Shown here one piece after another: positions 11,880 through 60,772 of a stretch of DNA of 64,000 nucleotides. Position 1 is the first letter of the stretch. Each line of letters starts with the position of its first letter. The DNA lies in NCBI RefSeq assembly GCF_900156605.1, contig NZ_FTOA01000002.1:1-64000 (forward strand), given 5' to 3'. The position numbers were made by a program, and so were the translations under genes. Source of the DNA: Insolitispirillum peregrinum. GTDB lineage: Bacteria; Pseudomonadota; Alphaproteobacteria; Rhodospirillales; Rhodospirillaceae. The notes beneath the pieces are model-generated. The model was not told the DNA's origin, ran no database searches, and saw nothing but the letters and a program-made list of their open reading frames with translations.

Positions 11880-14186
11880 CTAACGGTAAAAGCGATGAAT
11901 TTCACAGGCACCCTTCTGGGCGGTCACCGCATTGCACAGTGACACCAGCGCGGCATTGTCTGTGGTCTGCGCATACAGCATGTAGGAATAGCCCTGATCC
12001 GGCGTAAAGCCCTTGATCACGATCGCCTGAGCCTGTGCCAGCGCCGGGACTTTCCCCTGTAAAGCCATCCAGGCCCGTTCCGCCTCGGCTTTTGAGCGGA
12101 ACTGGCCGAGGTGGGCCATAAAGCCATCCACCGCCTGCGGGGCAACCTCAATCGCCTTGACGGTCGGAGCCTTGCCCGATGGAGTCGGGGCTTTCTGAGC
12201 GGCGAGTTTCTCAGCCGCAGCCTTCTCCGCAGCGACTTTCTCGGCGGCAGCCTTCTCAACCGCAGCCTTCTCCGCAGCGATCTTCTCGGCGGCAGCCTTT
12301 TCAGCCGCTGCCTTCTCCGCAGCGATCTTCTCGGCGGCAGCCTTTTCAGCCGCTGCCTTCTCCGCAGCGATCTTCTCGGCGGCAGCCTTTTCAGCCGCGG
12401 CCTTCTCCGCAGCGATCTTCTCGGCGGCAGCCTTTTCAGCCGCTGCCTTCTCCGCAGCGATCTTCTCGGCAGCAGCCTTTTCAGCCGCTGCCTTCTCCGC
12501 AGCGATCTTCTCGGCGGCAGCCTTTTCAGCAGCAGCCTTCTCCGCAGCGATCTTCTCGGCGGCAGCTTTCTCAGCCGCAGCCTTCTCCGCAGCGACCTTC
12601 CCGGCGGCAGCTTTCTCAGCCGCAGCCTTCTCCGCAGCGACCTTCTCGGCGGCAGCTTTCTCAGCAGCAGCCTTCTCCGCAGCGACCTTCTCGGCAGCAG
12701 CTTTCTCAGCCGCAGCCTTCTCCGCAGCGACCTTCTCGGCAGCAGCTTTCTCAGCCGCAGCCTTCTCCGCAGCGACCTTCTCGGCGGCAGCCTTTTCAGC
12801 CGCAACCTTCTCCGCAGCGGCTTTCTCGGCAGCAGCTTTCTCAGCCGCAGCCTTCTCCGCAGCGACCTTCTCGGCAGCAGCTTTCTCAGCCGCAGCCTTC
12901 TCCGCAGCGACTTTCTCGGCAGCAGCTTTCTCAGCCGCAACCTTCTCCGCAGCGACTTTCTCGGCGGCAGCCTTTTCAGCCGCAGCCTTCTCCGCAGCGA
13001 CTTTCTCGGCGGCAGCCTTTTCAGCCGCAGCCTTCTCCGCAGCGACCTTCTCGGCAGCAACTTTCTCAGCCGCAGCCTTCTCCGCAGCGACCTTCTCAGC
13101 AGCAGCCTTCTCCGCAGCGACTTTCTCGGCAGCAGCTTTCTCAGCAGCAGCCTTCTCCGCAGCGACTTTCTCGGCGGCAATCTTTTCAGCCGCAGCCTTC
13201 TCCGCAGCGACCTTCTCGGCAGCAGCTTTCTCAGCCGCAGCCTTCTCCGCAGCGACCTTCTCGGCGGCAGCTTTCTCAGCAGCAGCCTTGTCCGCCGCAG
13301 CTTTTTCGGCCGTCGCCTTTACAAAGGCCTGACGTTTTTCTGCCGCCGCCGCTTCCGCTGCGGCTTTCTGGGCCGCTATCTTCTCGGCCAGCGCCTTGCG
13401 GGCCTCTTCACTTTTTTGCTCGGACGTCTTTTCCACCGGCGCCGGACTTTCGGCTTTTGCCGGACTGGTCGCCACCGGCTCATCGACGGCGGACGGGTTC
13501 ACCACCACCGAGGCCGTAGCCCCCGCCTCCAGACTGTCGGATTGCGCTTCGCGCATCCGCTTCAGTTCGGCGCGCGCGCCCTCGTGCCCGGCCTCGGCGG
13601 CGTTTTCCAGCAAGCGCAGCGCCCGTTCCGGGTCACGCGGCACGCCCTGACCCTTTTCCAGCAACCGCGCCAGTTCCACCATCGCCGGCAGGCTGCCCAG
13701 CGAAGCCGCTTTCTGGAACCATTCAGCAGCCTTGGGATAGTCGGCAGGAATGCCGGAGTCGCCCATGTACATCACGGCCAGATTGTACTGCGCCCGGTCA
13801 AAGCCCAGATTGGCCGCCCGTTCGTACCACTCGCGGGCCTTTTCCGGGTCGCGCGGCACGCCCCGCCCCCAGCGGTACAGATGCGCCAGATTGCGCATTG
13901 CCGCGATCTGGCCCGGTTCGGGGGCACCTTTACCGCTTTCCGCCATTTTTTGCCCGGCTTCGGCGGCTTTTTGCCATTCCCGCGCCGCCAGGGCGTAATC
14001 ACCGTTCTGCCAGGCCTTCAGGCCAGCATCAAAGGAGCCATCCGCACTTTCAGCCGGAGCCGCTCCGGCCCAAACAGAGGAGGCGGGAAGCCCGATCAGC
14101 GCGCCAGACAGCAACAAGACACCGGAGAAGGCCCCGGCCGTCATCATCACTTTGACCCTGCTGGCCTTCAAGGAGCGGCCTGACAT
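11880..14186 (-). CDS. Sel1-repeat and SPOR-domain envelope protein with a long Ala-Lys-Glu repeat tract
   Basis: I start at ATG 14186, which has GGAGG twelve bases upstream, giving 768 residues. Order: basic N terminus and hydrophobic signal or anchor segment (about 10-42); several Sel1-like TPR repeats (about 55-215, e.g. [24 protein letters not shown]); a short linker; about 70 near-perfect pentapeptides of the type [15 protein letters not shown] (about 290-660); and a C-terminal SPOR domain (about 685-768, [18 protein letters not shown]). SPOR domains bind denuded septal peptidoglycan, so the protein probably spans the periplasm with the repeats as a long helical rod, as in TolA. Length of the tract likely varies between strains. 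The thioesterase gene follows nine bases downstream. Confidence 0.88.
12190..13320 (-). repeat. Coding 15-bp/45-bp tandem repeat ([15 protein letters not shown])
   Basis: About 1.1 kb of degenerate tandem repeat with a 15-bp basic unit and a clear 45-bp higher-order unit. The most homogeneous block is at about 12250-12560, where the unit containing GCAGCGATCTTC recurs every 45 bp. Because all units are multiples of three, unit gain or loss keeps the frame. The lack of stop codons on other frames produces long false ORFs on both strands. Confidence 0.95.
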
Positions 14187-24324: not shown

Positions 24325-24543
24325 CAGCGTGCGTGAATGTGACCACAGTACACGACAGTTTGAAAACAAGAGCGGGCTGCCGCCCGGACCTGCTCGGGGC
24401 CTGAGGCCCCGAACCCCCATTTTTCTTTTATAATCAAAGAAATGGGGTCTGGGGCCGACTGGCCCCGGCGAGGTGTGGAGCAGCGCTCCACGTCCTTGTT
24501 TCCCAACTGTCGTGTACTGTGGCGTCACATTTAACGCACGCTG
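24325..24543. repeat. Family E structured repeat, full-length copy E1 (terminal inverted repeats plus internal hairpins)
   Basis: Terminal inverted repeats of about 40 bp (24325-24361 and 24502-24543, imperfect) both contain ACAGTACACGACAGT or its complement. Inside are ordered hairpins: CGGGC-TGCC-GCCCG near 24373, TCGGGGCC-TGA-GGCCCCGA (24394-24412), an arm pair ACCCCC...TGGGGT around an AT-rich loop (24413-24448), GGGGCC-GACT-GGCCCC (about 24451-24466), and GTGGAGC-AGC-GCTCCAC (24475-24491). Other copies are at 46347-46500, 60563-60736, 43192-43423 (degenerate) and 56826-56915 (half). There is no coding capacity. It may be a MITE-like element or a structured RNA. Confidence 0.85.
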
Positions 24544-24544
24544 G

Positions 24545-24651
24545 TCTAGAGCATTTCTCGGTCTCCAAGGATCACGAGAAATGCTCTAATGACTTGTTAT
24601 TTAAGCAAATACGTCGTCACAGATGTGTCCATCTGCTCGGGATTTGCTCTA
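24545..24651. repeat. Family C and family B palindromic repeats in tandem
   Basis: 24545-24588 is a C copy: perfect 13-bp arms AGAGCATTTCTCG and its complement. After AATGACTTGTTATTTA comes a B copy at 24604-24651 (minus-strand reading TAGAGCAAATCCCGAGCAG...). The B copy's outer TAG is the stop codon of the TIGR02302 gene. The same B and C order with the spacer ATAACAAGT recurs at 46191-46303. Confidence 0.85.
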
Positions 24652-33825: not shown

Positions 33826-33858
33826 GAGAGCGTTTTCGCTCAGTATGAAAACGCTCTA
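33826..33858. repeat. Family C palindrome
   Basis: Arms AGAGCGTTTTC and GAAAACGCTCT flank a 9-base loop GCTCAGTAT. The same palindrome with a slightly different loop recurs at 46317-46347. The rest of the 248-bp gap between the sulfotransferase and the FAD oxidoreductase shows no gene. Confidence 0.8.
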
Positions 33859-33981
33859 AATCATCTTTCTGGCGCAGCACTCTATTCCAGGAACGACTGA
33901 TGTCTTGAGGAAAAGTCGCTGGCAGGACACCGACGGGATTGCCACTGTTTCCGTCCCTTGTCCTGATCGGGAAGTTTCACC

Positions 33982-41538: not shown

Positions 41539-41653
41539 AGAGCAAATCCCGAGCAGATGGACACATCTGCGACGACGTATTTGCTCTAATGGCAGGGTTA
41601 TAGCACCAGCCTGGACCAGCGTGCGTTAAATCTGATGCAGGCACGCTGGTCTA
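41539..41653. repeat. Family B palindrome followed by a family D palindrome
   Basis: 41539-41588 is a complete B copy with both edges (AGAGCAAATCCCGAGCAG ... TATTTGCTCTA) and a central hairpin CAGATG-GACA-CATCTG. At 41612-41653 lies a compact palindrome whose arms ACCAGCGTGC and GCACGCTGGT flank GTTAAATCTGATGCAG. The arm and the GTTAAAT match the outer end of element E1 (24525-24548), as if an E element had lost its interior. Confidence 0.8.
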
Positions 41654-41663
41654 GTCTTTTGTA

Positions 41664-41831
41664 TTGCCGCATTGTTGTTGCGAAAACCGGTTCCCACTTT
41701 TCGCACAATGCCGGGTTTTTCATGCCGCATTGTTGTTGCGAAAACCGGTTCCCACTTTTCGCACAATGCCGGGTTTTTCATGCCGCATTGTTGTTGCGAA
41801 AACCGGTTCCCACTTTTCGCACAATGCTCTA
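41664..41831. repeat. Family A repeat, about three tandem copies with 58-bp period
   Basis: GCCGCATTGTTGTTGCGAAA begins at 41666, 41724 and 41782, each followed by ACCGGTTCCCACTTTTCGCA. The copies are nearly identical. The array ends with CAATGCTCTA, and the CTA at 41829-41831 is the complement of the TAG stop codon of the ABC ATPase gene. It is not a CRISPR, since the whole 58 bp is repeated. Confidence 0.93.
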
Positions 41832-42980: not shown

Positions 42981-43178
42981 ATGTCGCAGGCCGCCACTAC
43001 CCCGGTGCAGGAAGTCATCGAAGTCGAAGCTCTGGAAGTTTCCTGTGATGGCGGAACCCCCGCCCTGGGCCACCCCAAGGTTTACCTGCACGTCGATGCC
43101 GAAGACGGCGTGGTCTGCCCGTACTGCTCCAGGCATTTCGTGCTGAAGCCGGGTGCGAAGATCAGCGCCGCCCACTAA
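42981..43178 (+). CDS. CHCC-type zinc-finger protein (NDUFS6-like)
   Basis: The 65-residue protein carries the zinc ligands C22, H31, C46 and C49 in SCDGG, ALGHPKVYLHV and CPYCSRHFVL. This is the zf-CHCC family, homologous to the NDUFS6 subunit of mitochondrial complex I, and common in alphaproteobacteria as a small separate gene. It has a good ribosome site (GGGAG ten bases before ATG). The role in bacteria is not established beyond possible complex I association. Confidence 0.93.
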   Translation: MSQAATTPVQEVIEVEALEVSCDGGTPALGHPKVYLHVDAEDGVVCPYCSRHFVLKPGAKISAAH

Positions 43179-43191
43179 GGCACGGGGGCAC

Positions 43192-43423
43192 AGGATCGTG
43201 GAGCGCGGCTCCACACCTCGCTGGGGCCTTCGGAGTATTGTGCGAAAAGTGGGAACCGGTTTTCGCAAAAACAATACGACACTTCAAAGAGAAAGACCTG
43301 TAAGCTTTACAGCTCACAGGTCTTGGCCCCAGACCCCATTAATTCGATTATCAAAGAAAAAACGGGAGCATTGGCCCTCGAAAGGGTACGGGCGGTAGCC
43401 TGCTGTTCTTCTGTTTTTTTACC
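43192..43423. repeat. Degenerate family E element (E4) with a family A copy inserted into a hairpin loop
   Basis: The outer parts match E elements: GTGGAGC-hairpin and CACCTCGCTGGGGCC (43198-43229), then GGCCCCAGACCCCATT (43325-43340), an AT-rich loop and GGGCGGTAGCC (43390-43400). In the intact copies the hairpin GGGGCC-AGTC-GGCCCC is continuous; here about 95 bp are inserted in its loop. The insertion contains a family A palindrome (43236-43279: TGCGAAAAGTGGGAACCGG) and a second hairpin AAGACCTGT/ACAGGTCTT (43291-43324). Confidence 0.8.
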
Positions 43424-43442
43424 CTGCTGATTGGGAAACGGT

Positions 43443-46193
43443 ATGAAGCACCTGTTCTTGGTGGATGGCTCGGGATTCATCTTTCGCGCCTATCATGCGC
43501 TGCCACCGCTGACCACCCGCGACGGGACGCCGACCAACGCCGTTTCCGGCTTCACCTCGATGATGATGAAGCTGATCGAGGATACCGACGCCAGCCATGT
43601 GGCGGTGATCCTTGATGCCGCCCGCAAGTCATTCCGCAACGACTTTTACCCGGACTACAAGGCCCATCGCCCCCCTGCCCCCGAAGACTTGGTGCCGCAG
43701 TTTCCGCTGATCCGCGAGGCGGTGCGGGCACTGAACGTGCCGTGCATCGAGATGGAAGGCTACGAGGCCGACGACATCATTGCCACCTATGCCCGCCAAG
43801 CGGCGGCGCAGGGGTTCATGGTGACGGTGGTCTCTTCCGACAAGGACCTGATGCAGCTGGTCGATGACCGCATCAGCCTGTGGGATGCGATGAAGAACAA
43901 GGCGATCACCCGCGCCGAAGTGATCGAGAAGTTCGGCGTCCCGCCCGAGCAGGTGGTGGACGTGCAGGCCCTGTGTGGCGATGCCGCCGACAACGTGCCG
44001 GGGGTGCCGGGGATCGGCATCAAGACCGCCGCCCAGTTGATCGGCGAGTTCGGCACGCTGGAAGCCCTACTGGAACAGGCCGGAACCATCAAGCAGCCCA
44101 AGCGCCGCCAGACCCTGCTGGACAATGCCGAACTGGCGCGGGTGTCCAAGCGGTTGGTGACGTTGTGCGACACCGTGCCGCTGGCCGAAACCATCGAGCA
44201 GTTCACCAAGACCGTGCCGGTGGTTGATGACCTGTCTGCCTTCCTTGAGCGGATGGAATTCCGCCGCCTGCTGGCACAGGTGCAGGGTCGGGCCGCCGCA
44301 CAGGCCAGCACGCCGCAGGCTGCCGCCAGTGCAGCACCGAGCGACGTTGCCTATGAACTGGTGCAGGATGCCGACCGTCTGCGCTGGTGGGTGGCGCAGG
44401 CGCAAACGATGGTGGCGATTGATACCGAAACCACCGGTCTGGATACCCAGAAAGCCGATCTGGTCGGGGTGTCACTGGCCCTGACGCCGGGCAAGGCGTG
44501 CTATGTCCCGCTGGCCCACGTCAACCCGGACGGCGCAGGCGATCTGCTGAGTGGCGGCGGGGCACCACCGCGCCAGATTCCGCTGGCCGAGGCGCTGGAA
44601 ATCCTGCGCCCGCTGCTGGAAAACCCCGGCGTGCTGAAGGTCGGCCATAACCTGAAATACGACCTGCACATCCTGCGGCGGGCCTATCGCCTGCATGGAA
44701 CGACGGTGCCTGTCGTTGCCCCGGTCGATGACAGCATGGTGCTGTCCTACGTGCTGGATGGCTCCCTGCACGGTCACGGCATGGATGAACTGGCCAAACT
44801 GCACCTGTCGCACACCACCATTCCCTTCAGTGAGGTCTGTGGCTCCGGGCGGTCGATGATCACCTTTGACAAGGTACCGCTCGACAAGGCGCTGGCCTAT
44901 GCCGCCGAGGACGCCGACATCACCCTGCGCCTGTACCTGCTGCTGCGCGAGCGCCTGCTGAGCGAACGAATGGTCGCGGTCCACGAGACGCTCGACCGGC
45001 CACTGGTGCCGCTGCTGTTTGCGATGGAGCAGCAGGGGATCAAGATCAACGCCCTGTATCTGAAAGAACTGTCGAACGATTTTGCTGGCCGGATGGTCGA
45101 GCTGGAAAAGCAGATTCACGCGCTGGCCGGGGAAGAATTCAACGTTGGCTCACCCAAGCAACTGGCCGAGATCCTGTTTGAGAAAATGGGCCTGAAGGGC
45201 GGCAAAAAGGGCAAGACCGGCACCTATTCCACCAACGCCGAAGTGCTGGAAGAGTTGGCCGCCGCAGGCCACGACCTGCCCGCCCGCGTGCTGGACTGGC
45301 GTTCGATCCAGAAGCTGAAAAGCACCTACACCGACGCCCTGATTGCGGCGATGGACGAGCAGCAGCGGGTCCACACCAGCTTTGCCCTGACCATCACCTC
45401 GACTGGACGGCTGTCGTCGTCGGACCCCAACCTGCAAAACATCCCGATCCGCACCGAGGAAGGCCGCAAAATCCGCGCCGCCTTCGTCGCCGAGCCGGGC
45501 TATAAAATCCTCGCCGCCGACTATTCACAGATCGAACTGCGCCTGATGGCCCATGTGGCCGACATTCCGGCCCTGCGCACGGCCTTTGCCGAGGATCAGG
45601 ACATCCACGCCCTGACCGCCAGTCAGGTGTTCGGGGTGCCGATGGACGGCATGGACCCGATGATCCGCCGCCGGGCCAAGGCGATCAACTTCGGGATCAT
45701 CTATGGCATTTCGGCCTTTGGGCTGGCGCGGCAACTGGGGATTTCCCGTGGCGAGGCACAGGCGTTCATTGATGCCTACTTTGCCCGCTTCCCGGAAATC
45801 CTCGCCTATATGGAGCGGACCAAGGACGAGGCACGCAAGAACGGCTTTGTGCGCACCCTGTTTGGCCGCAAGTGCTTTACGCCGGGAATCGGGGAAAAGA
45901 ACCCCACCCTGCGCGGCTTTGCCGAACGGTCGGCAATCAATGCGCCAATTCAGGGCGGGGCCGCTGACATCATCAAGCGGGCGATGATTGCCCTGCCCGC
46001 CGCCTTGCAGGCAGCGGGCCTTCAGGCCCGGCTGCTGTTGCAGGTCCACGATGAACTGGTGCTGGAAGTCCCCGAAGCCGAGGCCGACGCCACTGCCGCG
46101 CTGGTGCGGCAGGTGATGGAAGGTGCGGCCTCGTTGTCAGTGCCGCTGGTGGTGGAAACCGGCGTGGCCGACACCTGGGCCGAGGCGCATTAG
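43443..46193 (+). CDS. polA: DNA polymerase I
   Basis: I start at ATG 43443 (MKHLFLVDGSGFIFRAYHAL) rather than TTG 43431, giving 916 residues. Domains: 5'-3' exonuclease (about 1-290, with GIGIKTAAQLI helix-hairpin-helix), 3'-5' exonuclease with intact Exo I DTETTGL (near 326), Exo II GHNLKYDLHIL, Exo III YAAEDAD, and polymerase A (about 530-916). The latter has motif A DYSQIELRLMAH, O-helix RRRAKAINFGIIYG and motif C VHDELVLEV. Proofreading therefore should be active. The stop codon TAG (46191-46193) is the edge of a family B repeat. Confidence 0.98.
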   Translation: MKHLFLVDGSGFIFRAYHALPPLTTRDGTPTNAVSGFTSMMMKLIEDTDASHVAVILDAARKSFRNDFYPDYKAHRPPAPEDLVPQFPLIREAVRALNVPCIEMEGYEADDIIATYARQAAAQGFMVTVVSSDKDLMQLVDDRISLWDAMKNKAITRAEVIEKFGVPPEQVVDVQALCGDAADNVPGVPGIGIKTAAQLIGEFGTLEALLEQAGTIKQPKRRQTLLDNAELARVSKRLVTLCDTVPLAETIEQFTKTVPVVDDLSAFLERMEFRRLLAQVQGRAAAQASTPQAAASAAPSDVAYELVQDADRLRWWVAQAQTMVAIDTETTGLDTQKADLVGVSLALTPGKACYVPLAHVNPDGAGDLLSGGGAPPRQIPLAEALEILRPLLENPGVLKVGHNLKYDLHILRRAYRLHGTTVPVVAPVDDSMVLSYVLDGSLHGHGMDELAKLHLSHTTIPFSEVCGSGRSMITFDKVPLDKALAYAAEDADITLRLYLLLRERLLSERMVAVHETLDRPLVPLLFAMEQQGIKINALYLKELSNDFAGRMVELEKQIHALAGEEFNVGSPKQLAEILFEKMGLKGGKKGKTGTYSTNAEVLEELAAAGHDLPARVLDWRSIQKLKSTYTDALIAAMDEQQRVHTSFALTITSTGRLSSSDPNLQNIPIRTEEGRKIRAAFVAEPGYKILAADYSQIELRLMAHVADIPALRTAFAEDQDIHALTASQVFGVPMDGMDPMIRRRAKAINFGIIYGISAFGLARQLGISRGEAQAFIDAYFARFPEILAYMERTKDEARKNGFVRTLFGRKCFTPGIGEKNPTLRGFAERSAINAPIQGGAADIIKRAMIALPAALQAAGLQARLLLQVHDELVLEVPEAEADATAALVRQVMEGAASLSVPLVVETGVADTWAEAH

Positions 46194-46347
46194 AGCAAAT
46201 CCCGAGCAGATGGACACATCTGCGACGACGTATTTGCCTGGATAACAAGTCCTTAGAGCATTTTCAAGTTGACCGTCTCCGGTCAACGGCTCGGAAAATG
46301 CGGCCCTAAAAAGGGAGAGCGTTTTCGCTCGGTGTGAAAACGCTCTA
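46191..46347. repeat. Mosaic of family B and two family C repeats
   Basis: 46191-46239 is a B copy (TAGAGCAAATCCCGAGCAG), whose first three bases are the polA stop. It lacks the final TCTA and runs into CTGGATAACAAGTCC. 46254-46303 is a C copy, TAGAGCATTTTCAA, with a nested hairpin GTTGACCG-TCTC-CGGTCAAC. 46316-46347 is a second C palindrome (AGAGCGTTTTC/GAAAACGCTCT). The pair of C units together corresponds to the single composite copy at 57904-57969. Confidence 0.85.
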
Positions 46348-46530
46348 AGGATGTGGAGCGCTGCTCCACACCTCGCTGGGGCCAGTCGGCCCCAGACCCC
46401 ATTCCTTTGATCATAAAAGAAAAATGGGGGTTCGGGGCCTCAGGCCCCGAGCCGGTCCGGGCGGCAGCCCGCTCTTGTTTTCAAACTGTCGTGTACCGTG
46501 CCGGTTCCCACTTTTCGCACAATGCTTTAA
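46347..46530. repeat. Family E element copy E2 (reverse orientation) joined to a family A end
   Basis: 46347-46500 is the reverse complement of about three quarters of element E1, including all internal hairpins and the end ACTGTCGTGTACCGTG. The distal terminal repeat is missing where it meets the C palindrome at 46347. It joins directly to half of a family A copy (46499-46530, CCGGTTCCCACTTTTCGC). The latter's outer edge TTAA/TTTAAT gives the TAA stop codon of glutamate dehydrogenase. No gene is present in this 333-bp gap. Confidence 0.85.
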
Positions 46531-49500
46531 TGCCCCTTCAGGGTACCGAACTGGCGGCTGGCCACGGTCAGCATCGCCAGATCGACAGCGACGGCGGCCC
46601 GCAGTTCCCCAATCAGTTGCTCGGCCCGTTCCACCGCCGGTCGGCGGATATCGGCCCAGGATTCGATGGCGGCCAGCGGGTCGTGCAGGCTGCCTCCGGC
46701 CTGTTGCAGCACAGCGGCAGTCATCGCCCGCTGATCGGCATACAGCTCGTCAATGACCGCCGCAATCGCCAGCTTCTCCCAGTGGCTGCCATGCTTGGCC
46801 ACCCCTTCGGCACAGCCACGCAGCCAACCCAGCAGGAAGCGAGACCCCACCAGGAAGAAGTAGCGGGCGGCGGTTGCCACTGGCACCGCCTGATCCTGTG
46901 CCAGTCGCACCACATCCGGTGCTGACGCCAGCACAATCATTTCGGCGACCTGACTGGCCAGACGGGACGGGACGTTGGCCTGACCATAGCGGGTGGCCCG
47001 CGCTTCGATGGCGGCGGCCAGATCGGACGGGCAGACCTCATGCAGGCACTGGCTGAGGGCAATGCGCCCTTCGCCAACGTCGGCAATCAGACGGCCCATA
47101 TCAATCGGACGGGCAGCATGGCGCAACACCCACAGGGTAGCCCGTTCCAGCAGCCGGTTGGTTTCCTGCAACATTTCCTGTTGCAGTTCCGCCGACACCT
47201 CGTTGTCGAGCTGCTCGATCCCCTGCCAGACATCACGCACCCCAAAGGCATCGCGGGCTACCAGATAGGCGCGGGCAATGTCGGCGGGCGGCATGCCGGT
47301 CTTTTCGATGATCTGGGTGACAAAGGTTCCGCCGACCCGGTTGATCATGCTGTTGGTGGCATGCGTTGCGATGATTTCACGCCGCAGCTTGTGTGCGCCG
47401 ATCTGCTCGCGGAACCGCTGCTGCAACGGCGCCGGGAAGTAGCTGACCAGATCCTCGACCATCATCGGATCATCGGGCAAATCGCTCTGCACGATTTCGT
47501 CAAACAGCCACATCTTGGAATAGGCGATCAGCACCGCCAGTTCGGGCCGGGTCAGGCCCTGCTTGGCCTTTTGCCGGTTGGCCAGTTCCTCGTCATCGGG
47601 CAGGAACTCGATGGCGCGGTTCAGGCGACCCGACTTTTCCAGCATCCGCATCAGGCGGGCCTGATGGTCCAGCAGGTCAACGCCCTGACTCTGCATCAGG
47701 CTGATGGCCTGCGTTTGCAGATAATTGTCGCGCAGAACCTGCAGGCCGACCTCTTCGGTCATGTCCACCAGCAGGCTGTTGCGCTGCTTCAGGGTCATGT
47801 CGCCTTCGGCGACGATGCCGTTCAGCAGGATCTTGATGTTCACTTCATGGTCAGAGCAGTCCACACCGGCCGAATTGTCGATGGCGTCGGTGTTGATCCG
47901 GCCCCCGCGACCACCAGCCCCCTGACGGGCGTATTCGATACGGCCCCGCTGGGTCACCCCCAGATTGGCCCCTTCGCCGATCACCTTGGCGCGGACATCG
48001 CGGCCATTGATGCGGATGGCATCGTTGGCGCGGTCGCCCACCTGCGAGTCGGCTTCGCTGGCGGCCTTGATGTAGGTGCCGATGCCGCCAAACCACAGCA
48101 AATCGACTTCGGCTTTCAGCATCGCCAGAATCAGGTCGTTGGGGGCAATCTCGTCCACCGTCAGGCCAAAGGCGGCCTTGATCTGCGGGCTGAGCGGGAT
48201 TTTCTTGGCGCTGCGCTCGAACACGCCGCCGCCTTCGGAGATCAGCGCGCGGTCATAGTCGGCCCAGCTCGAACGTGGCAGGGCAAACATGCGCTGACGT
48301 TCGGCCAGCGTCGCCGCCGGATCGGTCGGGTTGGGGTCCACAAAGATGTGCATGTGGTTAAAGGCCCCGATCAGGCGGATGTGCGGGCTGAGCAGCATGC
48401 CGTTGCCGAACACGTCGCCGGACATGTCGCCAATGCCGATCACCGTAAAGTCTTCGGCCTGGGTGTTGCGGCCCATTTCACGGAAATGGCGCTTCACCGC
48501 TTCCCAGCCGCCCCGGGCGGTGATGCCCATCGCCTTGTGGTCATAGCCCTGACTGCCGCCCGAGGCAAAGGCATCGCCCAGCCAGAAGCCGTAATCCAGC
48601 GAGATGCCGTTGGCGATGTCCGAGAAGGTCGCGGTGCCCTTGTCGGCAGCCACCACCAGATACGGGTCGTCTTCGTCCAGACGCACCACATCGACCGGCG
48701 GCACCACCTGCCCGCTGACCAGATTGTCGGTGATGTCGAGCAGGCCGCGCATCAGCGTCTTGTAGCATTCGATGCCTTCGGCCATGAACGCATCACGCCC
48801 GCCCTCGGTCGGGGGCCGCTTGACCACAAAGCCGCCCTTCGAGCCAACCGGCACGATCACCGCATTCTTGACCATCTGGGCCTTGATCAGGCCGAGGATC
48901 TCGGTACGGAAGTCTTCACGGCGGTCGGACCAGCGGATACCGCCACGGGCGACCTTGCCGCCACGCAGATGGATGGCTTCGACGCGCGGGCTATAGACCC
49001 ACACTTCGACCATCGGACGCGGCAGGGGCAAGCCTTCGACATTGCGGCTGTCGATCTTGAACGACAGATAGCCCTTCGGTTGCCCTTCGGCGTCCTTCTG
49101 GTAAAAGTTGGTGCGCAGGGTGCAGTCGATCAGGTTCAGGAAGCGCCGCAGGATGCGGTCTTCGTCCGGGCTGGAGACCTGTTCCAGCGCATCAACGATC
49201 CGCTGACGGAACACCGCGGCATCGCCACCGGCACCATGCGGGTCAAAGCGGGCATGGAACAGGCGGATCAGTGTGCGGGCAATGTCGGGATGGGCTGCCA
49301 GTGCCGCTTCGATGCTGGCCTGACTGAAGGTAAAGGTGGCCTGCCGAAGGTACTTGGCATAGGCGCGCAGCACCACCACGTCCCGCCATGACAGACCGGC
49401 GGCGACCACCAGACGGTTAAAGCCGTCGTTTTCTGCCTCGCCGTTCCACACGCGGGCAAAGGCTTCCTGGAAGGCCGCACGGGTGGTGACAATGTCCACC

Positions 49501-51476
49501 CGGTCGATGTCAGCGGCGCGCATGTCAAAGTCATGCAGCCAGACGGTACGGGCCGGATGGCCCTTTTCCGCCCCCAGCGAGGCTTCAAACGGCACTTCGC
49601 CGATCACCTTGAAACCCATGTTTTCCAGCATCGGCAGGATTTCGCTCAGCGGGACAGCGCTGTCGGGGTGATAAATCTTGAAGTGGACCGCATCGTCGTC
49701 GGCTTCCAGCGGACGATAGAGGTTCATCGCCAGCGGATGGCTGTTGCCGGCATTGGCCTGTTCCAGCGCCTCTTCCATGCGGTCGATGTCAAACACCGCC
49801 CCTTGTGCCGAGGTCTGTTCCTCGTAGAAGGTCGGGAAGGCATCGCCATAGCGGCGGATCAGGCGGGTGCCCTGCTCTTCGCCCTTGGCGGCCAGAATGG
49901 CGTCGGCCAGGTGGTCGGACCAGGCGCGGGCGGCCAGCTGGATGCGGGCTTCGATCGCCGTCACGTCATAGGCCGGCAGGCGACCGGGCTGGGTGCGGAT
50001 GATGAAATGCAGACGGGCCAGCGGGCTGTCGGCCACCTGGGTGTAATAGGCGTCAAGGCCGCCGTGGAAGACGTTTTCCAGAATGCCCTTGATCGCCAGC
50101 CGCAGCGCGGTGTCATAACGGTCGCGCGGCACATAGACCAGACAGGAAACAAAGCGTTCAAACTCGTCCTGCCGGACCAGCACCGCCGTCCGCTGGCGTT
50201 CCTGCAGGTGCAGGATGCTGACCGCCATCTCCTGCAGCTTTTCATCGCTGGCCTGGAACAGCTCGTCGCGCGGCAGGTTTTCCAGAATGTTCAGCAGCGC
50301 CTTGCCGTCATGGCTGAACGGGCGGGTGCCGGTGCGGGCCAGAACGCGCTCGATCTTGCGGCGCAGGACCGGCACAAAGCTGGCGCTGTTGGTGTAAACG
50401 TTGGAGGTGAACAAGCCGACCAGCATGTGCAGGCCGATCACCCGGCCTTCGGCATCAAAACGCTTGATCCCGATCACATCCATATGCACTGCCCGATGGA
50501 CCCGTGCCCGGCGGTTGGCCTTGGTGATCAGCAGGAAGGTCGGACGGTTCAGAAAGGCGGTCACATCGGCCGGCAGGCCGGACAGGTTGCGCAGCTCGTC
50601 AAACACCAGCTGGCTTTCATCGCGCAGGATGCCCAGACCATCGCTGACGCTGACCGTCCACTGTCCTCCGGCACCATCGGCACCATCCGGGGTGCTGTGG
50701 TGATCGAACACATGGTTGCGATAGCCCAGCAGGGTGAAGTGGTTGTCGAGCAGCCAGCTGAGGAATTCGTGGACTTCACCGGCATCTTCGACGGCCAGAC
50801 CGGCCTCGGTTGCGGCAATGTCGTCCAGGGCTTGCGCCACTTTCCCGCGCACCAGTTCCCAGTCCTCGACCGCCGCCCGGTTTTCGGACAGGACGCCTTC
50901 CAGGTCACGGTGAATGGCCTGCAAGCGGGCCGGGTCAGAAATCTCGGTGATTTCGATGTGCATCACCGATTCCGTCACCATGCCGTCCAGCACCTCGCCG
51001 CGCAGGTCGGCATCGGGTTCCAGCAGGTCGAACAGCTCGCCGGTCGCATCACGGCGGATGTGCATCACCGGATGGATCACCATCAGGATCTGGGCATCCT
51101 GCATCGACAGCGCGGCAGTAACGGAATCAACCAGAAACGGCATGTCGTCATTGATGATTTCGACCACCGTGTGGTCACTCTGCCAGCCGTGCTGCTCGAT
51201 GCGGGGGGTAAAGACCCGGATTTTCGGCGCCCCCGGCTGACGCTGGCGGGCAAAGGCCAGCAGCGACGCCACCGCGCCGTACAGTTGATCCGGGTCGCGC
51301 CCGTCAACGTCATCGGGCGGAACATCACGGTAATACTGACGGGCAAAAGCCTCGGCCACCACACCGGGAGCCGGAGCGTTATCGTGTCCCGGCGCGCCCT
51401 TGTTGCGATCACGGGCCATCCTGGCAACCCGTTCAATCAAATCCTGTTTGGTCGCTGCCGCCTTCTTGGCCATCAT
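46527..51476 (-). CDS. gdhB: NAD-specific glutamate dehydrogenase, large (about 180-kDa) form
   Basis: The 1649-residue protein matches the large NAD-GDH family that converts glutamate to 2-oxoglutarate and ammonium. ATG 51476 and 51473 follow AAGGAG. The N-terminal half (about 1-700) holds ACT-like regulatory segments. The catalytic part contains RGGIRWSDRREDFRTEILGL, VPVGSKGGFVVKRPP with the catalytic Lys, and a Rossmann domain with GIGDMSGDVFGNGML. The C-terminal part (about 1250-1649) is helical and also usual for this class. The stop codon TAA is the edge of a family A repeat. It is the only gene on its strand here and is likely monocistronic. Confidence 0.96.
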   Translation of the reverse strand: MMAKKAAATKQDLIERVARMARDRNKGAPGHDNAPAPGVVAEAFARQYYRDVPPDDVDGRDPDQLYGAVASLLAFARQRQPGAPKIRVFTPRIEQHGWQSDHTVVEIINDDMPFLVDSVTAALSMQDAQILMVIHPVMHIRRDATGELFDLLEPDADLRGEVLDGMVTESVMHIEITEISDPARLQAIHRDLEGVLSENRAAVEDWELVRGKVAQALDDIAATEAGLAVEDAGEVHEFLSWLLDNHFTLLGYRNHVFDHHSTPDGADGAGGQWTVSVSDGLGILRDESQLVFDELRNLSGLPADVTAFLNRPTFLLITKANRRARVHRAVHMDVIGIKRFDAEGRVIGLHMLVGLFTSNVYTNSASFVPVLRRKIERVLARTGTRPFSHDGKALLNILENLPRDELFQASDEKLQEMAVSILHLQERQRTAVLVRQDEFERFVSCLVYVPRDRYDTALRLAIKGILENVFHGGLDAYYTQVADSPLARLHFIIRTQPGRLPAYDVTAIEARIQLAARAWSDHLADAILAAKGEEQGTRLIRRYGDAFPTFYEEQTSAQGAVFDIDRMEEALEQANAGNSHPLAMNLYRPLEADDDAVHFKIYHPDSAVPLSEILPMLENMGFKVIGEVPFEASLGAEKGHPARTVWLHDFDMRAADIDRVDIVTTRAAFQEAFARVWNGEAENDGFNRLVVAAGLSWRDVVVLRAYAKYLRQATFTFSQASIEAALAAHPDIARTLIRLFHARFDPHGAGGDAAVFRQRIVDALEQVSSPDEDRILRRFLNLIDCTLRTNFYQKDAEGQPKGYLSFKIDSRNVEGLPLPRPMVEVWVYSPRVEAIHLRGGKVARGGIRWSDRREDFRTEILGLIKAQMVKNAVIVPVGSKGGFVVKRPPTEGGRDAFMAEGIECYKTLMRGLLDITDNLVSGQVVPPVDVVRLDEDDPYLVVAADKGTATFSDIANGISLDYGFWLGDAFASGGSQGYDHKAMGITARGGWEAVKRHFREMGRNTQAEDFTVIGIGDMSGDVFGNGMLLSPHIRLIGAFNHMHIFVDPNPTDPAATLAERQRMFALPRSSWADYDRALISEGGGVFERSAKKIPLSPQIKAAFGLTVDEIAPNDLILAMLKAEVDLLWFGGIGTYIKAASEADSQVGDRANDAIRINGRDVRAKVIGEGANLGVTQRGRIEYARQGAGGRGGRINTDAIDNSAGVDCSDHEVNIKILLNGIVAEGDMTLKQRNSLLVDMTEEVGLQVLRDNYLQTQAISLMQSQGVDLLDHQARLMRMLEKSGRLNRAIEFLPDDEELANRQKAKQGLTRPELAVLIAYSKMWLFDEIVQSDLPDDPMMVEDLVSYFPAPLQQRFREQIGAHKLRREIIATHATNSMINRVGGTFVTQIIEKTGMPPADIARAYLVARDAFGVRDVWQGIEQLDNEVSAELQQEMLQETNRLLERATLWVLRHAARPIDMGRLIADVGEGRIALSQCLHEVCPSDLAAAIEARATRYGQANVPSRLASQVAEMIVLASAPDVVRLAQDQAVPVATAARYFFLVGSRFLLGWLRGCAEGVAKHGSHWEKLAIAAVIDELYADQRAMTAAVLQQAGGSLHDPLAAIESWADIRRPAVERAEQLIGELRAAVAVDLAMLTVASRQFGTLKGH

Positions 51477-51685
51477 AACTCTCCTTGGTGCAGACAGGCG
51501 GTTTGGGGGGGAAGGGGGAGGCCCGTCTGCAGATCAGTCCTTGGGCACAAACAGGGATCGGGTGTTGCAGAGCAGCATTCCTCTGCCCTGACCCAAGTTT
51601 GCCTGCCCAAAAGAATTGATCTTTTTGCCGTTTATATTCAAGTACTTCCTGGAATTTCTTTTTTGGAAACAGAAGAGGGTAAATA

Positions 51686-51901
51686 ATGGATCGTTCACAG
51701 ACCATGATCGGTTTGGGGATCGCCCTGACAGTGGTGATTCTGGCCGTCATCAAGGAGCGTGCGCCTTACCAGCCGGGCCGCTTGTGGGTGGTCCCCTGGC
51801 GCTGGCTGCTTGCATTCGCTTTGCTGGCTGTTCTGGTTCTTTCTGCGCACCTGATCAGCGAGCTGAGCGGGCATCCGCTCACAGGCCGTGCGGCATTTTA
51901 G
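51686..51901 (+). CDS. Small membrane protein of unknown function
   Basis: This 71-residue protein has two hydrophobic helices (about 7-22 and 41-59) separated by KERAPYQPGRLWVVPWRW. It has its own ribosome site AGAGGG six bases before ATG 51686 and is followed by a good hairpin terminator, so it is very likely a real monocistronic gene. No family is recognised. Confidence 0.7.
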   Translation: MDRSQTMIGLGIALTVVILAVIKERAPYQPGRLWVVPWRWLLAFALLAVLVLSAHLISELSGHPLTGRAAF

Positions 51902-51930
51902 GGCATTCTGAAGCGCGCCGATGAGACACC

Positions 51931-51962
51931 AAGGCCCGGCTGCTGGGTTGGCCGGGCCTTTG
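51931..51962 (+). terminator. Hairpin terminator of the small membrane protein gene
   Basis: AAGGCCCGGC (51931-51940) pairs perfectly with GCCGGGCCTT (51951-51960) around TGCTGGGTTG; TT(T) follows. It lies 30 bp after the gene's stop. Confidence 0.8.
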
Positions 51963-52175
51963 CGGTCCAACCGGAAACGACAGTCCGCTGGAACGATCCT
52001 GGTCGCAACCGGAACCAGCGGGCGATCAGGGGAAGCAGTGGATCATGCTGCCACAGTTGGACAGGCTAACTGTTGCGATTGTTGCATACGCAACAAAATG
52101 GCGACCGCGACAGAAGATGAAAAACCGTGTCGCTGACCGCTTTTTCATCCTGTCCGCATCTTTCCCTGACAAGGC

Positions 52176-52985
52176 TCAGGGGGCGATGATCGGGGCCAGA
52201 CCGTTCTTTTCGGCATAGGTGGTCAGGCGACCATCCCGCTTGATATCGCTGACAAACTGATTGACCCGCGCCAGCCAGACACTATCCCCCTTGGGGACGG
52301 CGTAGGCATAGGGCGTCGGAGCCAGCGGAGTCGGCGGAGCCAGCAGAGTCGCCCACGGCGTTTGGGTCGCCATGCGCTGACCATAGGGGTAATCGGTCAT
52401 GAACACGTCAGCACGGCCACTTTCGACCTCCTGCTCCCGCTGCTTGAAATCCTCAACCACCGCCACCTGGGCCTTTTTCAGCGTTTCCCGCATCACCGGC
52501 TCCATGTAGGTGCCTTTCTGGACCACCACCACATGGCCGGGCTGGTCGATATCCGCCCAGGTCCTGATCGAGGCATGAGTCCGGGGCGCAACGGCATAGA
52601 TACCGCTGACCAGATAGGGGGCGCTGAAATCCATGTGCTCGGCCCGGTCCGGACGGACTCCGACGGCGTGCATGGCGATGTCGCAGGCGTCGGTGGTCAG
52701 GTTTTTCACCAGATCGGCAAACGAACTGTCAACAAACTCGGCCGACACCTTCAGGTCACTGGCCAGTTGGTGGGCAAGGTCGATATCGATGCCTTCCAGC
52801 TGACCATTGCGGGGATTGCGATAGGTAATACCAAAGTAGGCCGGCCAGATGCAGACCCGCAGGCGCCCGCTCTTCTGAATGCTGTCCAGATGGGAGGCAG
52901 CCCTGGCTCCCGCACTGTCAATACCAACGGAGGCGGCCAGAACGACGGCCAGCAGGCCGACAGAACGAAGCAGGGGAAGGCGCAT
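52176..52985 (-). CDS. Periplasmic amino-acid-type substrate-binding protein (SBP family 3)
   Basis: The start ATG 52985 gives MRLPLLRSVGLLAVVLAAS, a signal peptide cut after ARA; an upstream ATG 53027 would also keep the frame. The 269-residue protein has the SBP-3 pattern: GRLRVCIWPAYFGITYRNPRNGQLEGIDIDLAHQLA, MDFSAPYLVSG, and KGTYMEPVMRETLKKAQ with a C-terminal VNQFVSDIKRDGRL. No permease or ATPase is beside it; it faces a histidine kinase gene on the other strand. It could feed that kinase as a sensor partner or be an orphan transporter component. Confidence 0.88.
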   Translation of the reverse strand: MRLPLLRSVGLLAVVLAASVGIDSAGARAASHLDSIQKSGRLRVCIWPAYFGITYRNPRNGQLEGIDIDLAHQLASDLKVSAEFVDSSFADLVKNLTTDACDIAMHAVGVRPDRAEHMDFSAPYLVSGIYAVAPRTHASIRTWADIDQPGHVVVVQKGTYMEPVMRETLKKAQVAVVEDFKQREQEVESGRADVFMTDYPYGQRMATQTPWATLLAPPTPLAPTPYAYAVPKGDSVWLARVNQFVSDIKRDGRLTTYAEKNGLAPIIAP

Positions 52986-53214
52986 GGCAGAAATCCTGTT
53001 GGTCTGGACAAAAAGCTCCTTGACCATACCCGAAGGAGGTCTTTTTTGCCATAGACATGAATAAATCTGAATTGCGCTTCGGCGGGAGGTCGTTATCCTA
53101 AGTTCCGATGGATCATTCCCCACAAGGTATGGTCAAGTAACACCAGATCGCACTCAACCCCGGTCGTGAACCCGCGTTCCTGAAGCTTGACAACAAAAAA
53201 GGTCGGATACCGCC

Positions 53215-55779
53215 GTGACCCCCCGCCTGAACGAGCGCTCCCTGTCCCGGCGCTTTGTTTTTTCCATGATTGTCATTGCCGGGGTGGTTGTTTCCATGAT
53301 TCTGGGAACGGCAGGGGTCGGGCTGTGGACCGCCCTGCAGCAAAGCCGGTCGGCCAGCGCCCGCACGCTGGCGTCCTCCGCCGAGCTGGTGGAAAAGGGC
53401 ATGACCCGCTCGGTCGAGTCGATTGACGTACTGCTGGCATCCCTGTCCTACCGGCTGGCCGATCTGGGCGGCCATCCGGCCTTGCATGCCGAGGTCGTTC
53501 GGGGTGACGTCGTTGCCGGGATGGCGCAGGACATGATGCGCTTTGCCCCGCATGTGCGGCAAATCATGATTCTTGATCAACAGGGGGTCGTCCTGTTTGA
53601 CAGTGCGCCGTCGGCGGCCGTCGGCGGGCAGATTGATCTGGCAGCCCTGGGACTGGGAGATCAGGCGCCGCGGGCTCTGGCGGGCAACCTGCAAATCGGC
53701 CTGTCGGTCGCCGGGCGCTTTCTTGGACAGGCCGGGGTGGCCCCGGTCGGGGTGTCAGTGATCCCGGTGGCCTACCCGTTCCAGGTGACCATGGCAAGCG
53801 GTCAGCAGGAAACATTCTATGCGGTCGCGGCGATCAATCCGGGGTTTGTGCAGGACAGCTTTGACGCGGTGGTGGCGCAGGATCGGGGCGGCATTGCCGA
53901 GGAAGTGATTCTGGCCCGCTATGATGGACCGATCCTGGCCGTACGGGCTTCTGCGGCTCTGCCGATCGAAATCCCGAAGCAGGTTCCGGCGGTGTTGAGT
54001 GGCGCCATTGAGCGGGCCGAAAGCGGTCGGCTGGCCGATATCCTGCCATTGTCTGCACAGTTTGGTGACCTGCACTGGCAGGTATCATCCCGCTATCCAC
54101 TGGTGGTGGTGGTTGGCCGCAGTGAACATGCCCTGCTGAATGGCTGGTATGATGATCAACGGGTGGTGCTGGTCTCCGTGCCGGTGTTGCTGCTGGTTGT
54201 GCTGGCGATGATGGGGGGGCTGATCTGGCAGGTGATCGGGCGCGGCCGGTTGCAGGAACAGGTCCGGGTGCTGTCGCAGGCACTGGAGCAGGGACCAACG
54301 GCGGTCCTGATCACCTCGGCTCAGGGACGCATCGAATACGTCAATCAGGCCTTTACCGAGATGCTGGGCTATAGCCGGACTGACGTTGTGGGCGAAACAC
54401 CCCGGCTGATCAAAAGCGGCCTGATGCAGGAGGCCGTCTATCGCGAGCTGTGGGATACCATCACCAAAGGAAAGGTCTGGAGTGGGGAACTGCTGAACCG
54501 CACCAAAGATGGCCATCTGCGCTGGATGATCGCCGCCATTTCGGGTGTGCGGGGTGATGACGGAGACATCAGCCACTTCATCGCCGTCGAAACCGATGTC
54601 AGTGAGCAAAAACGGCTGGATCAGCGGTTGAATGAAATCCAGAAGCTGGTCGAGGGTTTGCTGGCCCTGCCAGTGGTCCTTTATCGCATCAACCGCTCTG
54701 GCGTGCTGACCGATGCGCTGGGGGCCGGGCTGGAGCAGTTGAAGCTGACGCGGGACGCCCTGATTGGCCGCCGCTATGACGACCTGTTCCCCGGCTTTGC
54801 CCCGCAGGTTCAGCAGGCGCTGGAGGGGCAGACGGTTCGTTTTGAAGGCCAAAGCCGTTTTGCCCACAAGACGGTGTGGCTGGAACACTTGCTGGTGTTT
54901 GATCCGGCTCGCCCGGAAAGCCCTTATATCAAGCATGGCCTTCCCCTGAGCGGAAACGGTACCGAAAGTGATCTGTTGCTGGACCATGAAGACGGTGCCA
55001 TCGGCATTGCACTGGACGTGACCGCCCGCAGGCAGGCCGAAGGACGGCTGTCGGCCACCATTGACCGCCTGAATGCCTCGAATCACGAGCTGGAACAGTT
55101 CGCCTATGTCGCCTCCCACGATTTGCAGGAGCCATTGCGCATTGTGTCGAGTTACCTGTCCTTGCTGAAGCGGCGCTACACCGACCAGCTTGACGAAGAT
55201 GCGCAGGTGTTCATCGGCTATGCAATCGAGGGATCACACCGCATGCAAAGCCTGATCCTTGACTTGCTGCAACTGTCGCGGATCGGGACACAGGGCCGGG
55301 AACTGGGGCCAACGGACCTCAGCCCGGTGATTGAAACGGCGCTGGCCAACCTTGACCTGTCGATCAAGGAAACGCAGGCCTCGATCATCATCCGCGACCC
55401 GTTACCCACCGTTCTGGGGGACGGCGCACAGTTGATCCGCCTGTTTCAGAACCTGATCGGGAACGCCCTGAAATACCGTCATCCAGACCGTCCGCCGGTG
55501 GTGATGATTCAGTGCCGTTTTGAGGGCGGTTTGTGGCACCTGGTCGTCGAGGACAATGGTCTGGGGATCGGGGAAGCCTTCCGGGACCGGATTTTCCTGA
55601 TTTTCCAGCGTTTGCAATCCCGCGAAGACTCGCAGGGGAACGGGATTGGCCTGGCCATCTGCCGCAAGATCGCCGAACGCCATGGCGGCTCGATCTGGGT
55701 CGACGGCGAAGAAGGCAGAGGCAGCCGTTTCCATGTCACCTTGCGGCGTCAGGATGACATGCTGCCCCCTGTGTCATGA
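53215..55779 (+). CDS. Membrane sensor histidine kinase with two PAS-like domains
   Basis: The 854-residue protein starts at GTG 53215. It has an N-terminal membrane helix (about 17-40), a periplasmic sensor region (about 45-310), a second helix (about 322-345), a PAS domain (about 355-465, ending in ISHFIAVETDVSEQ), another PAS-like region (about 475-610), HisKA with H635 in ASHDLQEPLRIV, and HATPase (about 725-850; NLIGNALKY N box, EDNGLGIGEAF G1, GNGIGLAICRKI G2). The H-box type is that of phytochrome-like and NtrY-like kinases without a receiver. No response regulator is adjacent. The periplasmic domain and adjacent binding protein hint at ligand sensing. The next gene follows after 49 bp. 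Confidence 0.9.
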   Translation: MTPRLNERSLSRRFVFSMIVIAGVVVSMILGTAGVGLWTALQQSRSASARTLASSAELVEKGMTRSVESIDVLLASLSYRLADLGGHPALHAEVVRGDVVAGMAQDMMRFAPHVRQIMILDQQGVVLFDSAPSAAVGGQIDLAALGLGDQAPRALAGNLQIGLSVAGRFLGQAGVAPVGVSVIPVAYPFQVTMASGQQETFYAVAAINPGFVQDSFDAVVAQDRGGIAEEVILARYDGPILAVRASAALPIEIPKQVPAVLSGAIERAESGRLADILPLSAQFGDLHWQVSSRYPLVVVVGRSEHALLNGWYDDQRVVLVSVPVLLLVVLAMMGGLIWQVIGRGRLQEQVRVLSQALEQGPTAVLITSAQGRIEYVNQAFTEMLGYSRTDVVGETPRLIKSGLMQEAVYRELWDTITKGKVWSGELLNRTKDGHLRWMIAAISGVRGDDGDISHFIAVETDVSEQKRLDQRLNEIQKLVEGLLALPVVLYRINRSGVLTDALGAGLEQLKLTRDALIGRRYDDLFPGFAPQVQQALEGQTVRFEGQSRFAHKTVWLEHLLVFDPARPESPYIKHGLPLSGNGTESDLLLDHEDGAIGIALDVTARRQAEGRLSATIDRLNASNHELEQFAYVASHDLQEPLRIVSSYLSLLKRRYTDQLDEDAQVFIGYAIEGSHRMQSLILDLLQLSRIGTQGRELGPTDLSPVIETALANLDLSIKETQASIIIRDPLPTVLGDGAQLIRLFQNLIGNALKYRHPDRPPVVMIQCRFEGGLWHLVVEDNGLGIGEAFRDRIFLIFQRLQSREDSQGNGIGLAICRKIAERHGGSIWVDGEEGRGSRFHVTLRRQDDMLPPVS

Positions 55780-55828
55780 CAACATCTGTCATGACAACAG
55801 TGTGCGCTCAAAAAAAGGAAAACAGGTC

Positions 55829-56737: not shown

Positions 56738-56825
56738 CAGGCTGTCCGACACCTGACCGTCGAGGCTGTTTGTTTCACGCTGAATCAGATACTCTGCGCC
56801 GGGCAACGACGCACAATGCGGCAAA

Positions 56826-56942
56826 ACAAAATGGGGGCTTGGGGCCTCAAGCCCCAAACGGGTTCGGGCGGTAGCACGCTCTTTGAATCCAACTGTCGTG
56901 TACTGTGGGTTCACGTCTGGAGCAGTGAGCGCAAAAGCAGGA
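56826..56942. repeat. Half family E element (E5) running into a degenerate family A copy that supplies an RBS
   Basis: Read on the minus strand, 56826-56915 contains the E terminal repeat (ACAGTACACGACAGT) and the two first hairpins, TTGGGGCT-TGA-GGCCCCAA replacing the E1 stem TCGGGGCC/GGCCCCGA. From 56921 follows GGAGCAGTGAGCGCAAAAGC, the edge of a family A element. Its continuation AGGAAGC lies just before ATG 56949 of the Wzz-like gene, so the ribosome-binding site derives from the repeat. Confidence 0.75.
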
Positions 56943-56948
56943 AGCGTA

Positions 56949-57887: not shown

Positions 57888-57903
57888 GACCAGAGCTGTG
57901 ACT

Positions 57904-57969: not shown

Positions 57970-57993
57970 AACAGGTTGCGCCAGAGCACAGCG

Positions 57994-59306: not shown

Positions 59307-59307
59307 G

Positions 59308-60480: not shown

Positions 60481-60485
60481 CGTAC

Positions 60486-60527: not shown

Positions 60528-60562
60528 AGATCAAAAGGTTGGAACTGTGAGCATGTTTCACA

Positions 60563-60736
60563 CCACAGGACACGACAGTTGACAAGAAAGTGCAGGCTGC
60601 CGCCTGAAACCGCTCGGGGCCTGAGGCCCCGAACCCCCATTTTTTCTTTTAATATCAAATCAATGGGGTCTGGGGCCGACTGGCCCCGGCGAGGTGTGGA
60701 GCAGCGCTCCACGTCTTTGTTCACAAGCTGTCGTGG
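60563..60736. repeat. Family E structured element, full-length copy E3
   Basis: Same order of hairpins as E1 with both terminal inverted repeats (ACACGACAGTT at 60569-60580 and AGCTGTCGTG near 60726-60735). The first hairpin reads CAGGC-TGCC-GCCTG, where E1 has CGGGC-TGCC-GCCCG: a compensatory pair change. A family A half copy (60735-60766, GGTTCCCACTGTTGCGCTCAC) follows directly. No gene is present between 60481 and 60772. Confidence 0.85.
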
Positions 60737-60772
60737 TTGGTTCCCACTGTTGCGCTCACGGCTCCAGGCGGG

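Follow-up and report, generated by a model that had tools for sequence, protein, structure and literature searches.

The repeat family E, carried by the 64,000-nucleotide stretch of DNA analysed here (the window), is very probably a miniature gene-less DNA transposon (MITE), a reading to which we assign a probability of about 0.9, the figure applying to the best explanation as a whole. E is short and non-coding, ends in terminal inverted repeats (TIRs), is accompanied by a target duplication and occurs as dispersed copies alongside empty sites, which are the features of a MITE. It would have been moved in trans by a transposase of the DDE type making a 9-bp staggered cut, and the preference for a repeat loop would have brought it into intergenic sequence 3' of genes, where its presence may do little harm. 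Its interior is a five-hairpin module with order-wide relatives that, in the source genome, is borne between these TIRs; the stems would stay paired in the sequences founding subfamilies, at the DNA level as far as within-genome tests tell, resident copies would decay afterwards, and copies would be mosaics formed by exchange of left and right halves. An earlier note on this DNA described E as a multi-hairpin repeat under selection on structure, with a role either in mobility or as an RNA, and missed both the nesting of E in another palindromic repeat and the order-wide recurrence of its interior.

The layout of the copy E1 is given in Table 1; the inverted symmetry around it extends into the flanks, to 24325/24543. 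Its predicted RNA fold has an energy of -141.4 kcal/mol, while shuffled versions average -75.2 (z -14.8; equalled by none of 200 shuffles), and folding is comparable as DNA and on the opposite strand. The TIRs and ordered hairpins reported previously can be seen directly in E1, and the TIR occurs with up to two mismatches 106 + 105 = 211 times genome-wide versus 1 + 0 times for a reversed control pattern. The four further copies proposed in the window (E2, 46347-46500; E3, 60563-60736; E4, 43192-43423; E5, 56826-56915) are all homologous to E1, each partial or degenerate, and two stem changes that had been singled out are indeed present, namely CGGGC/GCCCG in E1 becoming CAGGC/GCCTG in E3, and TCGGGGCC/GGCCCCGA in E1 becoming TTGGGGCT/GGCCCCAA in E5. 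The absence of coding capacity holds for E1, which is covered by no open reading frame of at least 100 aa in the mechanical list, but not so simply for the other copies, as mechanical frames overlap E2, E3 and E5. No named family was recognised either: none of 4227 Rfam models matched the window at its gathering score, and neither E nor its five-hairpin interior appeared in the open-licence PMC papers listed by literature searches, which is not proof of absence.

Table 1. Copies of E and of its target repeat O in the window, with the parts of E1
Feature	Position	Strand	Remark
E1, complete element	24344..24521	+	178 bp quasi-palindrome, 17-bp TIRs, five internal hairpins P1-P5
E1 left terminal inverted repeat	24344..24360	+	CACAGTACACGACAGTT
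E1 hairpin P1	24373..24386	+	CGGGC-TGCC-GCCCG
E1 hairpin P2	24394..24412	+	TCGGGGCC-TGA-GGCCCCGA
E1 central hairpin P3	24415..24447	+	centre T-rich/A-rich
E1 hairpin P4	24449..24468	+	
E1 hairpin P5	24476..24490	+	
E1 right terminal inverted repeat	24505..24521	+	
E1 left flank, arm of host repeat O (second palindrome)	24325..24343	.	9-bp duplication not matching (3/9)
E1 right flank, opposite arm of host repeat O	24522..24552	+	
E2	46347..46500	-	without right end; abuts O piece at 46501-46529
E3	60564..60735	+	degenerate right end; O left part upstream at 60479-60559
E4, P5-side piece	43187..43230	-	
O-type repeat in P4 hairpin of E4	43233..43322	+	P4 placement by eye
E4, remaining piece	43323..43412	-	profile match 43275-43412 overlaps nested O-type repeat
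E5, reduced to its left half (from TIR to centre)	56823..56907	-	
Empty target repeat O	41605..41711	-	two palindromes, loop CTGCATCAGATTTAAC unbroken

The search for further copies that had been proposed was run as a profile search of two contiguous stretches totalling 864 kb (C17:1-464000, which includes the window, and C4:550001-950000) and gave 73 E matches, 50 of them at least 100 bp long; scaled to 4.64 Mb, this corresponds to approximately 390 copies (all matches) or 270 (those of at least 100 bp), whole or partial. Both ends were located in 71 copies, obtained from 160 matches in 1.008 Mb, a sample which includes 60 short stretches picked around TIR or E matches and is thus enriched in intact copies; 52 of these 71 are 178-181 bp long, within a range of 142-181. 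Among 73 genomes of the same taxonomic family, a set that includes no congener, the TIR (up to two mismatches) is abundant in the source genome alone, the other 16 genomes with any match having at most two each, which is about the level of the control pattern, and the plasmid and phage collections gave no match. Inspection by eye of seven isolated TIR-like matches from this sample assigned them to E fragments or chance; among these, A138558 has an exact TIR next to an O-type flank.

The usual landing site of E is the hairpin loop of another repeat. This target, O, is a two-palindrome repeat of approximately 110 bp, consisting of AGAGCATTGTGCGAAAAGTGGGAACCGGTTTTCGC... followed by TTAGACCAGCGTGC-CTGCGTCAGATTTAAC-GCACGCTGGTCTA, and E is inserted in the loop GCGTCAGAT of its second palindrome, in both orientations (19 + 14 clear cases). 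At a threshold of 0.68 identity (the shuffled 99.9% point being 0.56), an O flank is found on at least one side of 59 of the 71 copies, on both sides of 34 and on neither side of 12. Empty sites also exist: seven O copies in the 864 kb differ from the closed-up consensus by 1-3 positions (one other match to this consensus being a filled site), and 15 span the greater part of the O profile with no E close by. E is itself invaded in its P4 hairpin, where by eye O lies in E4, a second E lies in the copy at C4:561446, and an element with an rve transposase (L215 879-2350), which we take to be IS481-like, lies in the copy at C17:467843. E constitutes a clear case of nested repeats. Several smaller palindromic repeats share the neighbourhood: a first palindrome of the O type occurs three times head-to-tail, 58 bp each, at 41658-41831, adjoining the empty O copy; a palindromic family with ends AGAGCAAATCCCGAGCAGATGG...ATTTGCTCT adjoins E or O at 24579-24651, 41539-41590 and 46191-46263; short palindromes starting with AGAGCATTTTC or AGAGCGTTTTC are found at 46255-46312 and 57911-57968, and at 33826-33859 and 46315-46348; and AGAGC...GCTCT ends are common to several repeats of this region.

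The mobility role that had been suggested is borne out by duplications of 9 bp at the target. When the flanks of the 71 copies are compared as direct repeats, mean identity is 0.646 at length 9 versus 0.16-0.27 at lengths 5-8 and 10-13. The 9-bp flanks match perfectly in 14 of 71 copies, compared with 1.1% of mismatched left/right pairings, and at six or more positions in 44, the remaining 27, E1 included, falling below six. As most copies share the same kind of target, own and swapped flanks were compared within one orientation of O, where own flanks matched better: 7.0 versus 6.3 bases in one orientation (n=19; 1/5000 permutations) and 8.36 versus 6.85 in the other (n=14; 0/5000 permutations). 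That the 9-bp repeats merely belong to the O consensus on both sides is argued against by the existence of empty O copies. Moreover, variants of the target are duplicated on both sides, for example ACCGGACGC (L079) and GCGTCCGGT (L094), and the E copy that by eye lies inside another E (C4:561446-561622) is flanked by a 9/9 duplication of an unrelated 9-mer, GGGGCCGGG.

Compensatory change in the stems had been claimed from single examples, and it is upheld by the alignment of 38 copies, in which the six helices contain 43 cells changed on both sides versus 11.9 in shuffles (0/500) and the covariation score is 0.101 versus 0.064 shuffled (0/500) and at most 0.031 in slid controls. On the other hand, the number of pairs with a change on both sides (8 versus 6.3 shuffled; 100/500) and that of further pair types (21 versus 22.9; 473/500) are unexceptional, so that pairing is kept, in few but widely shared variants. 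When the variant pairs of the internal stems are divided by their frequency, both sides have changed in 7 of 8 cases present in at least eight copies and in 2 of 66 types present in at most two, types in 3-7 copies being left unclassed. Selection on structure, as proposed earlier, must therefore be qualified: compensation belongs to widely shared variants and is scarcely found in private ones, so that any constraint would act on the amplifying or ancestral sequence and not on resident copies. We read this as constraint, or palindrome-driven correction, acting on amplifying sequences and followed by unconstrained decay, although the shared compensated excess could also reflect merely the greater age of shared changes. 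E in this way separates compensation in shared (amplified) variants from its near-absence in the private changes of resident copies, two things that are usually confounded.

A structured RNA, either cis-regulatory or small, that is selected for its fold and dispersed only secondarily, would account for the very stable fold of E1, for covariation beyond the shuffled and slid controls, and for a constant hairpin order with compensatory changes between genera; nevertheless, both strands fold about equally well, two of the five shuffle-test measures are unexceptional and the window has no Rfam match. RNA transcribed from either strand should furthermore favour one class of mismatch, and within the genome neither class is favoured: mismatched pairs number 65 G-T and 74 A-C over the stem pairs of 71 copies (p=0.50), and 34 G-T and 47 A-C in the internal hairpins only (p=0.18). 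This count replaces two earlier ones, of which the first (113 versus 70 in 30 copies, p=0.002) was dropped as it included badly chosen pairs, such as a supposed outermost pair of P5 which reads T-G in 28 copies, and the second, a hand recount of the internal stems of that set (10 G-T versus 27 A-C), has been superseded. Between genera there is a lean towards G-T among mismatched cells, of 34 versus 21 in P1, P2, P4 and P5 (p=0.10) and of 73 versus 38 with P3 included (p=0.001), which would favour an RNA; yet the alignment was fitted with a model whose own pair scoring accepts G-U and may cause the lean, so that it is given no weight either way and the within-genome count, as the cleaner test, is weighed above it. 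Beside tandem genes, E lies on the gene strand in 11 cases and on the opposite strand in 12, so that the RNA role envisaged in the earlier note is not upheld by either of the two within-genome tests, and we consider a primary function as RNA very improbable. A spread of the copies through homologous recombination, or through template switching among palindromes, instead of transposition, would find some support in their mosaic structure. Distances between neighbouring blocks correlate (Mantel r 0.23-0.43) except across P2 and the centre (0.03; 171/500 permutations as high), outer left and outer right blocks scarcely correlate at all, and the left and right halves of the 38 copies correlate at r = 0.09 (113/2000 permutations); this independence is incomplete, as P4 retains small correlations with the outermost left block (0.15) and with P2 (0.11). 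With genealogies so nearly independent, the two halves of the element appear to have been swapped among copies, but 9-bp duplications of varied target sequence on both sides are not expected from recombination, and as the means of dispersal it is extremely improbable.

The remaining alternatives concern the agent of dispersal and the reason for which copies are kept. A REP/REPIN-type nature, in which a RAYT (Y1) transposase would mobilise E and recognise it by its hairpins, is suggested by extragenic palindromes in high copy number and in a nested mosaic arrangement, and is hardly credible in view of the 9-bp target duplications, which IS200/IS605-type chemistry is not known to make, and of the lack of any match to Y1_Tnp (PF01797) in the genome under a search that detects this family in 5 of 14 control genomes. 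More serious is the proposal that the host retains the module chiefly for bidirectional transcription termination or 3' insulation, transposition having done no more than supply copies; it is compatible with the best explanation of how E spread. With putative genes predicted by a simple in-house codon-usage caller, and with each E placed by its midpoint, the 50 matches of 100 bp or more occupy 48 distinct gaps; 27 matches lie in convergent gaps, 23 in tandem gaps, 0 in divergent gaps and 0 in genes, compared with 74 convergent, 293 tandem and 104 divergent among all gaps of at least 50 bp. This confinement to convergent and tandem gaps speaks for termination, as do terminator-like sites called by a consensus scan at P1 in three copies (E2, E3, E4) and at P2 in E5, the 29 such sites in 43000-61000 versus 16.1 in shuffles, a T-run directly after P5 in 9 of 23 relatives in genome G003, and a centre resembling an A-stem-T bidirectional terminator hairpin, perfect in G038 (L168) and near-perfect in G040 (L172). 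In contrast, the tails in the source genome are not clean T-runs (CTTGTTTC), one relative (L212) comes after a separate terminator-like hairpin, and purifying selection against insertions in promoters would leave the same 3' bias. O copies without E show a similar lean in placement, with 13 convergent, 18 tandem, 4 divergent and 1 in a gene (n=36); they differ from E in the divergent-or-genic fraction (5/36 versus 0/50; Fisher p=0.011) and not in the convergent share (p=0.13). Taken together, a mainly terminating or insulating role appears rather unlikely.

The interior of the proposed MITE has a much wider distribution than its ends. With a covariance model of E (R1) at a cutoff of E<=0.001, and with scoring of the top 37 or top 9 candidates from each genome, relatives were detected in at least 20 of 73 genomes of the family (at least 10 of 23 genera) and in at least 49 of 297 genomes of the order (at least 20 of 111 genera), the source genome being counted in each case; of the 49, 16 are members of the same family and 33 come from other families. 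The relatives that were read show the order P1, ACCC, P2, ACCCC, a T-rich centre or large hairpin, GGGGT, P4, GGGT, P5, the linkers L1/L1' and L2/L2' look complementary by eye in the copies read, and homology ends, again by eye, at P1 and P5 in most of those read. In a cross-genus alignment of the best match from each of 54 loci in other genomes, which covers part of the loci and leans towards the model, Watson-Crick pairing amounts to 92-98% in P1, P2, P4 and P5, 76% in P3 and 70% at the TIR positions, and cells that differ on both sides from the commonest pair number 26 in P1, 83 in P2, 92 in P4 and 38 in P5. The ends found around the module vary: one element in G007 has E-like ends and flanks matching at 7/9 by eye; in G049 the module lies between different inverted ends (CTATCATGTTCACAC...), with a 9-bp duplication that is by eye perfect in one of three copies (L171/L195) and not in L198/L192 or L201; and most other relatives read have no recognisable terminal inverted ends. 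It can be proposed tentatively, with the odds leaning against it, that the arrangement P1-L1-P2-L2-P3-L2'-P4-L1'-P5, possibly folded as stacked four-way junctions, represents a previously undescribed class of DNA element spread across the order Rhodospirillales, each lineage amplifying a version with its own sequence and only some lineages having TIRs, which would imply either a shared machinery that recognises structure or a 3'-end function that is not sequence-specific. If the architecture is truly order-wide and independent of TIRs, then what reads it, be it a recombinase, a DNA-binding protein or the polymerase as it terminates, can be tested directly. Other arrangements were also observed: G010 (L007 1311-1851) contains about three 187-bp units in tandem, each bearing a hairpin module related to E, and further copies at a spacing of approximately 182 bp (G010:C5:135467-136241), and in G047 (L197, L200) lone inverted ends of the G049 type (TATCATATTCACACTTC) lie beside a repeat GTCATTGCGAACCCTCGTC...GAAGCAATCCAG.

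Nested repeats and insertion sequences that target REP elements are already known, and the interior module of E has no Rfam match in the window. Bacterial MITEs, among which a review names QMITE2 (approximately 190 bp) and CIR, resemble E in being short, non-coding and mostly intergenic, with TIRs, target duplications and many copies, and BOX, RUP and SPRITE elements are reported to insert into one another (PMC10969869). E differs from these in strongly favouring a single other repeat, in whose hairpin loop it inserts, and in a five-hairpin interior related to order-wide repeats that mostly lack such TIRs. Several insertion sequences (ISPsy8, ISPa11, ISPpu9/10, ISRm22 and ISRm19) likewise have a palindromic extragenic repeat as target, namely REP palindromes, but these carry a transposase, whereas E carries none and duplicates 9 bp (PMC1525189). 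With REP/BIME/REPIN systems, E shares a palindromic, mosaic and extragenic character; unlike them, it has TIRs and target duplications and resides in a genome without a match to the Y1 transposase (PMC3733652).

The earlier note had also pointed to a transposase sharing the ends of E as a thing to look for, and none of the matches to five Pfam transposase families in the source genome carries E termini (CACRGTACACGACAGTT) of its own. PF01797 (Y1_Tnp), PF00872 (Transposase_mut) and PF03400 (DDE_Tnp_IS1) gave 0 matches, PF01609 (DDE_Tnp_1) gave three at two places and PF00665 (rve) gave two. The DDE_Tnp_1 matches were rejected as partners, being fragments or short frames without E ends. The rve transposase gene that a TIR closely precedes at C17:467843 was set aside, as the transposase is part of the element with other ends that is inserted in this E copy. 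Facing TIRs 1.4 kb apart (C10:221832-223253) were considered as an autonomous element but belong to two E copies, one on either side of a gene, presumably for ribonucleotide reductase. When an autonomous element bearing the G049 ends was looked for in genus g28, further module copies and lone ends came to light, and no transposase was recognised at the three g28 lone-end loci when their frames were read by eye.

As for O, RIME1 and Bru-RS are two-palindrome extragenic repeats of alphaproteobacteria, and O resembles them in general layout, being extragenic, of approximately 110 bp and composed of two palindromes; the likeness concerns O, and E itself is not claimed as either. Two further features of the window deserve mention. 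The 920-aa frame at 43431-46193, which we take to encode DNA polymerase I, has its closest protein match in Rhodospira trueperi (66%; the source genome's own records were possibly excluded from this comparison), which places the source organism in or near the Rhodospirillaceae. Finally, a dense 15-bp periodic repeat runs through a long reading frame at about 12058-13500, with 71 overlapping matches to a 300-nt reference, and looks like a repetitive protein.
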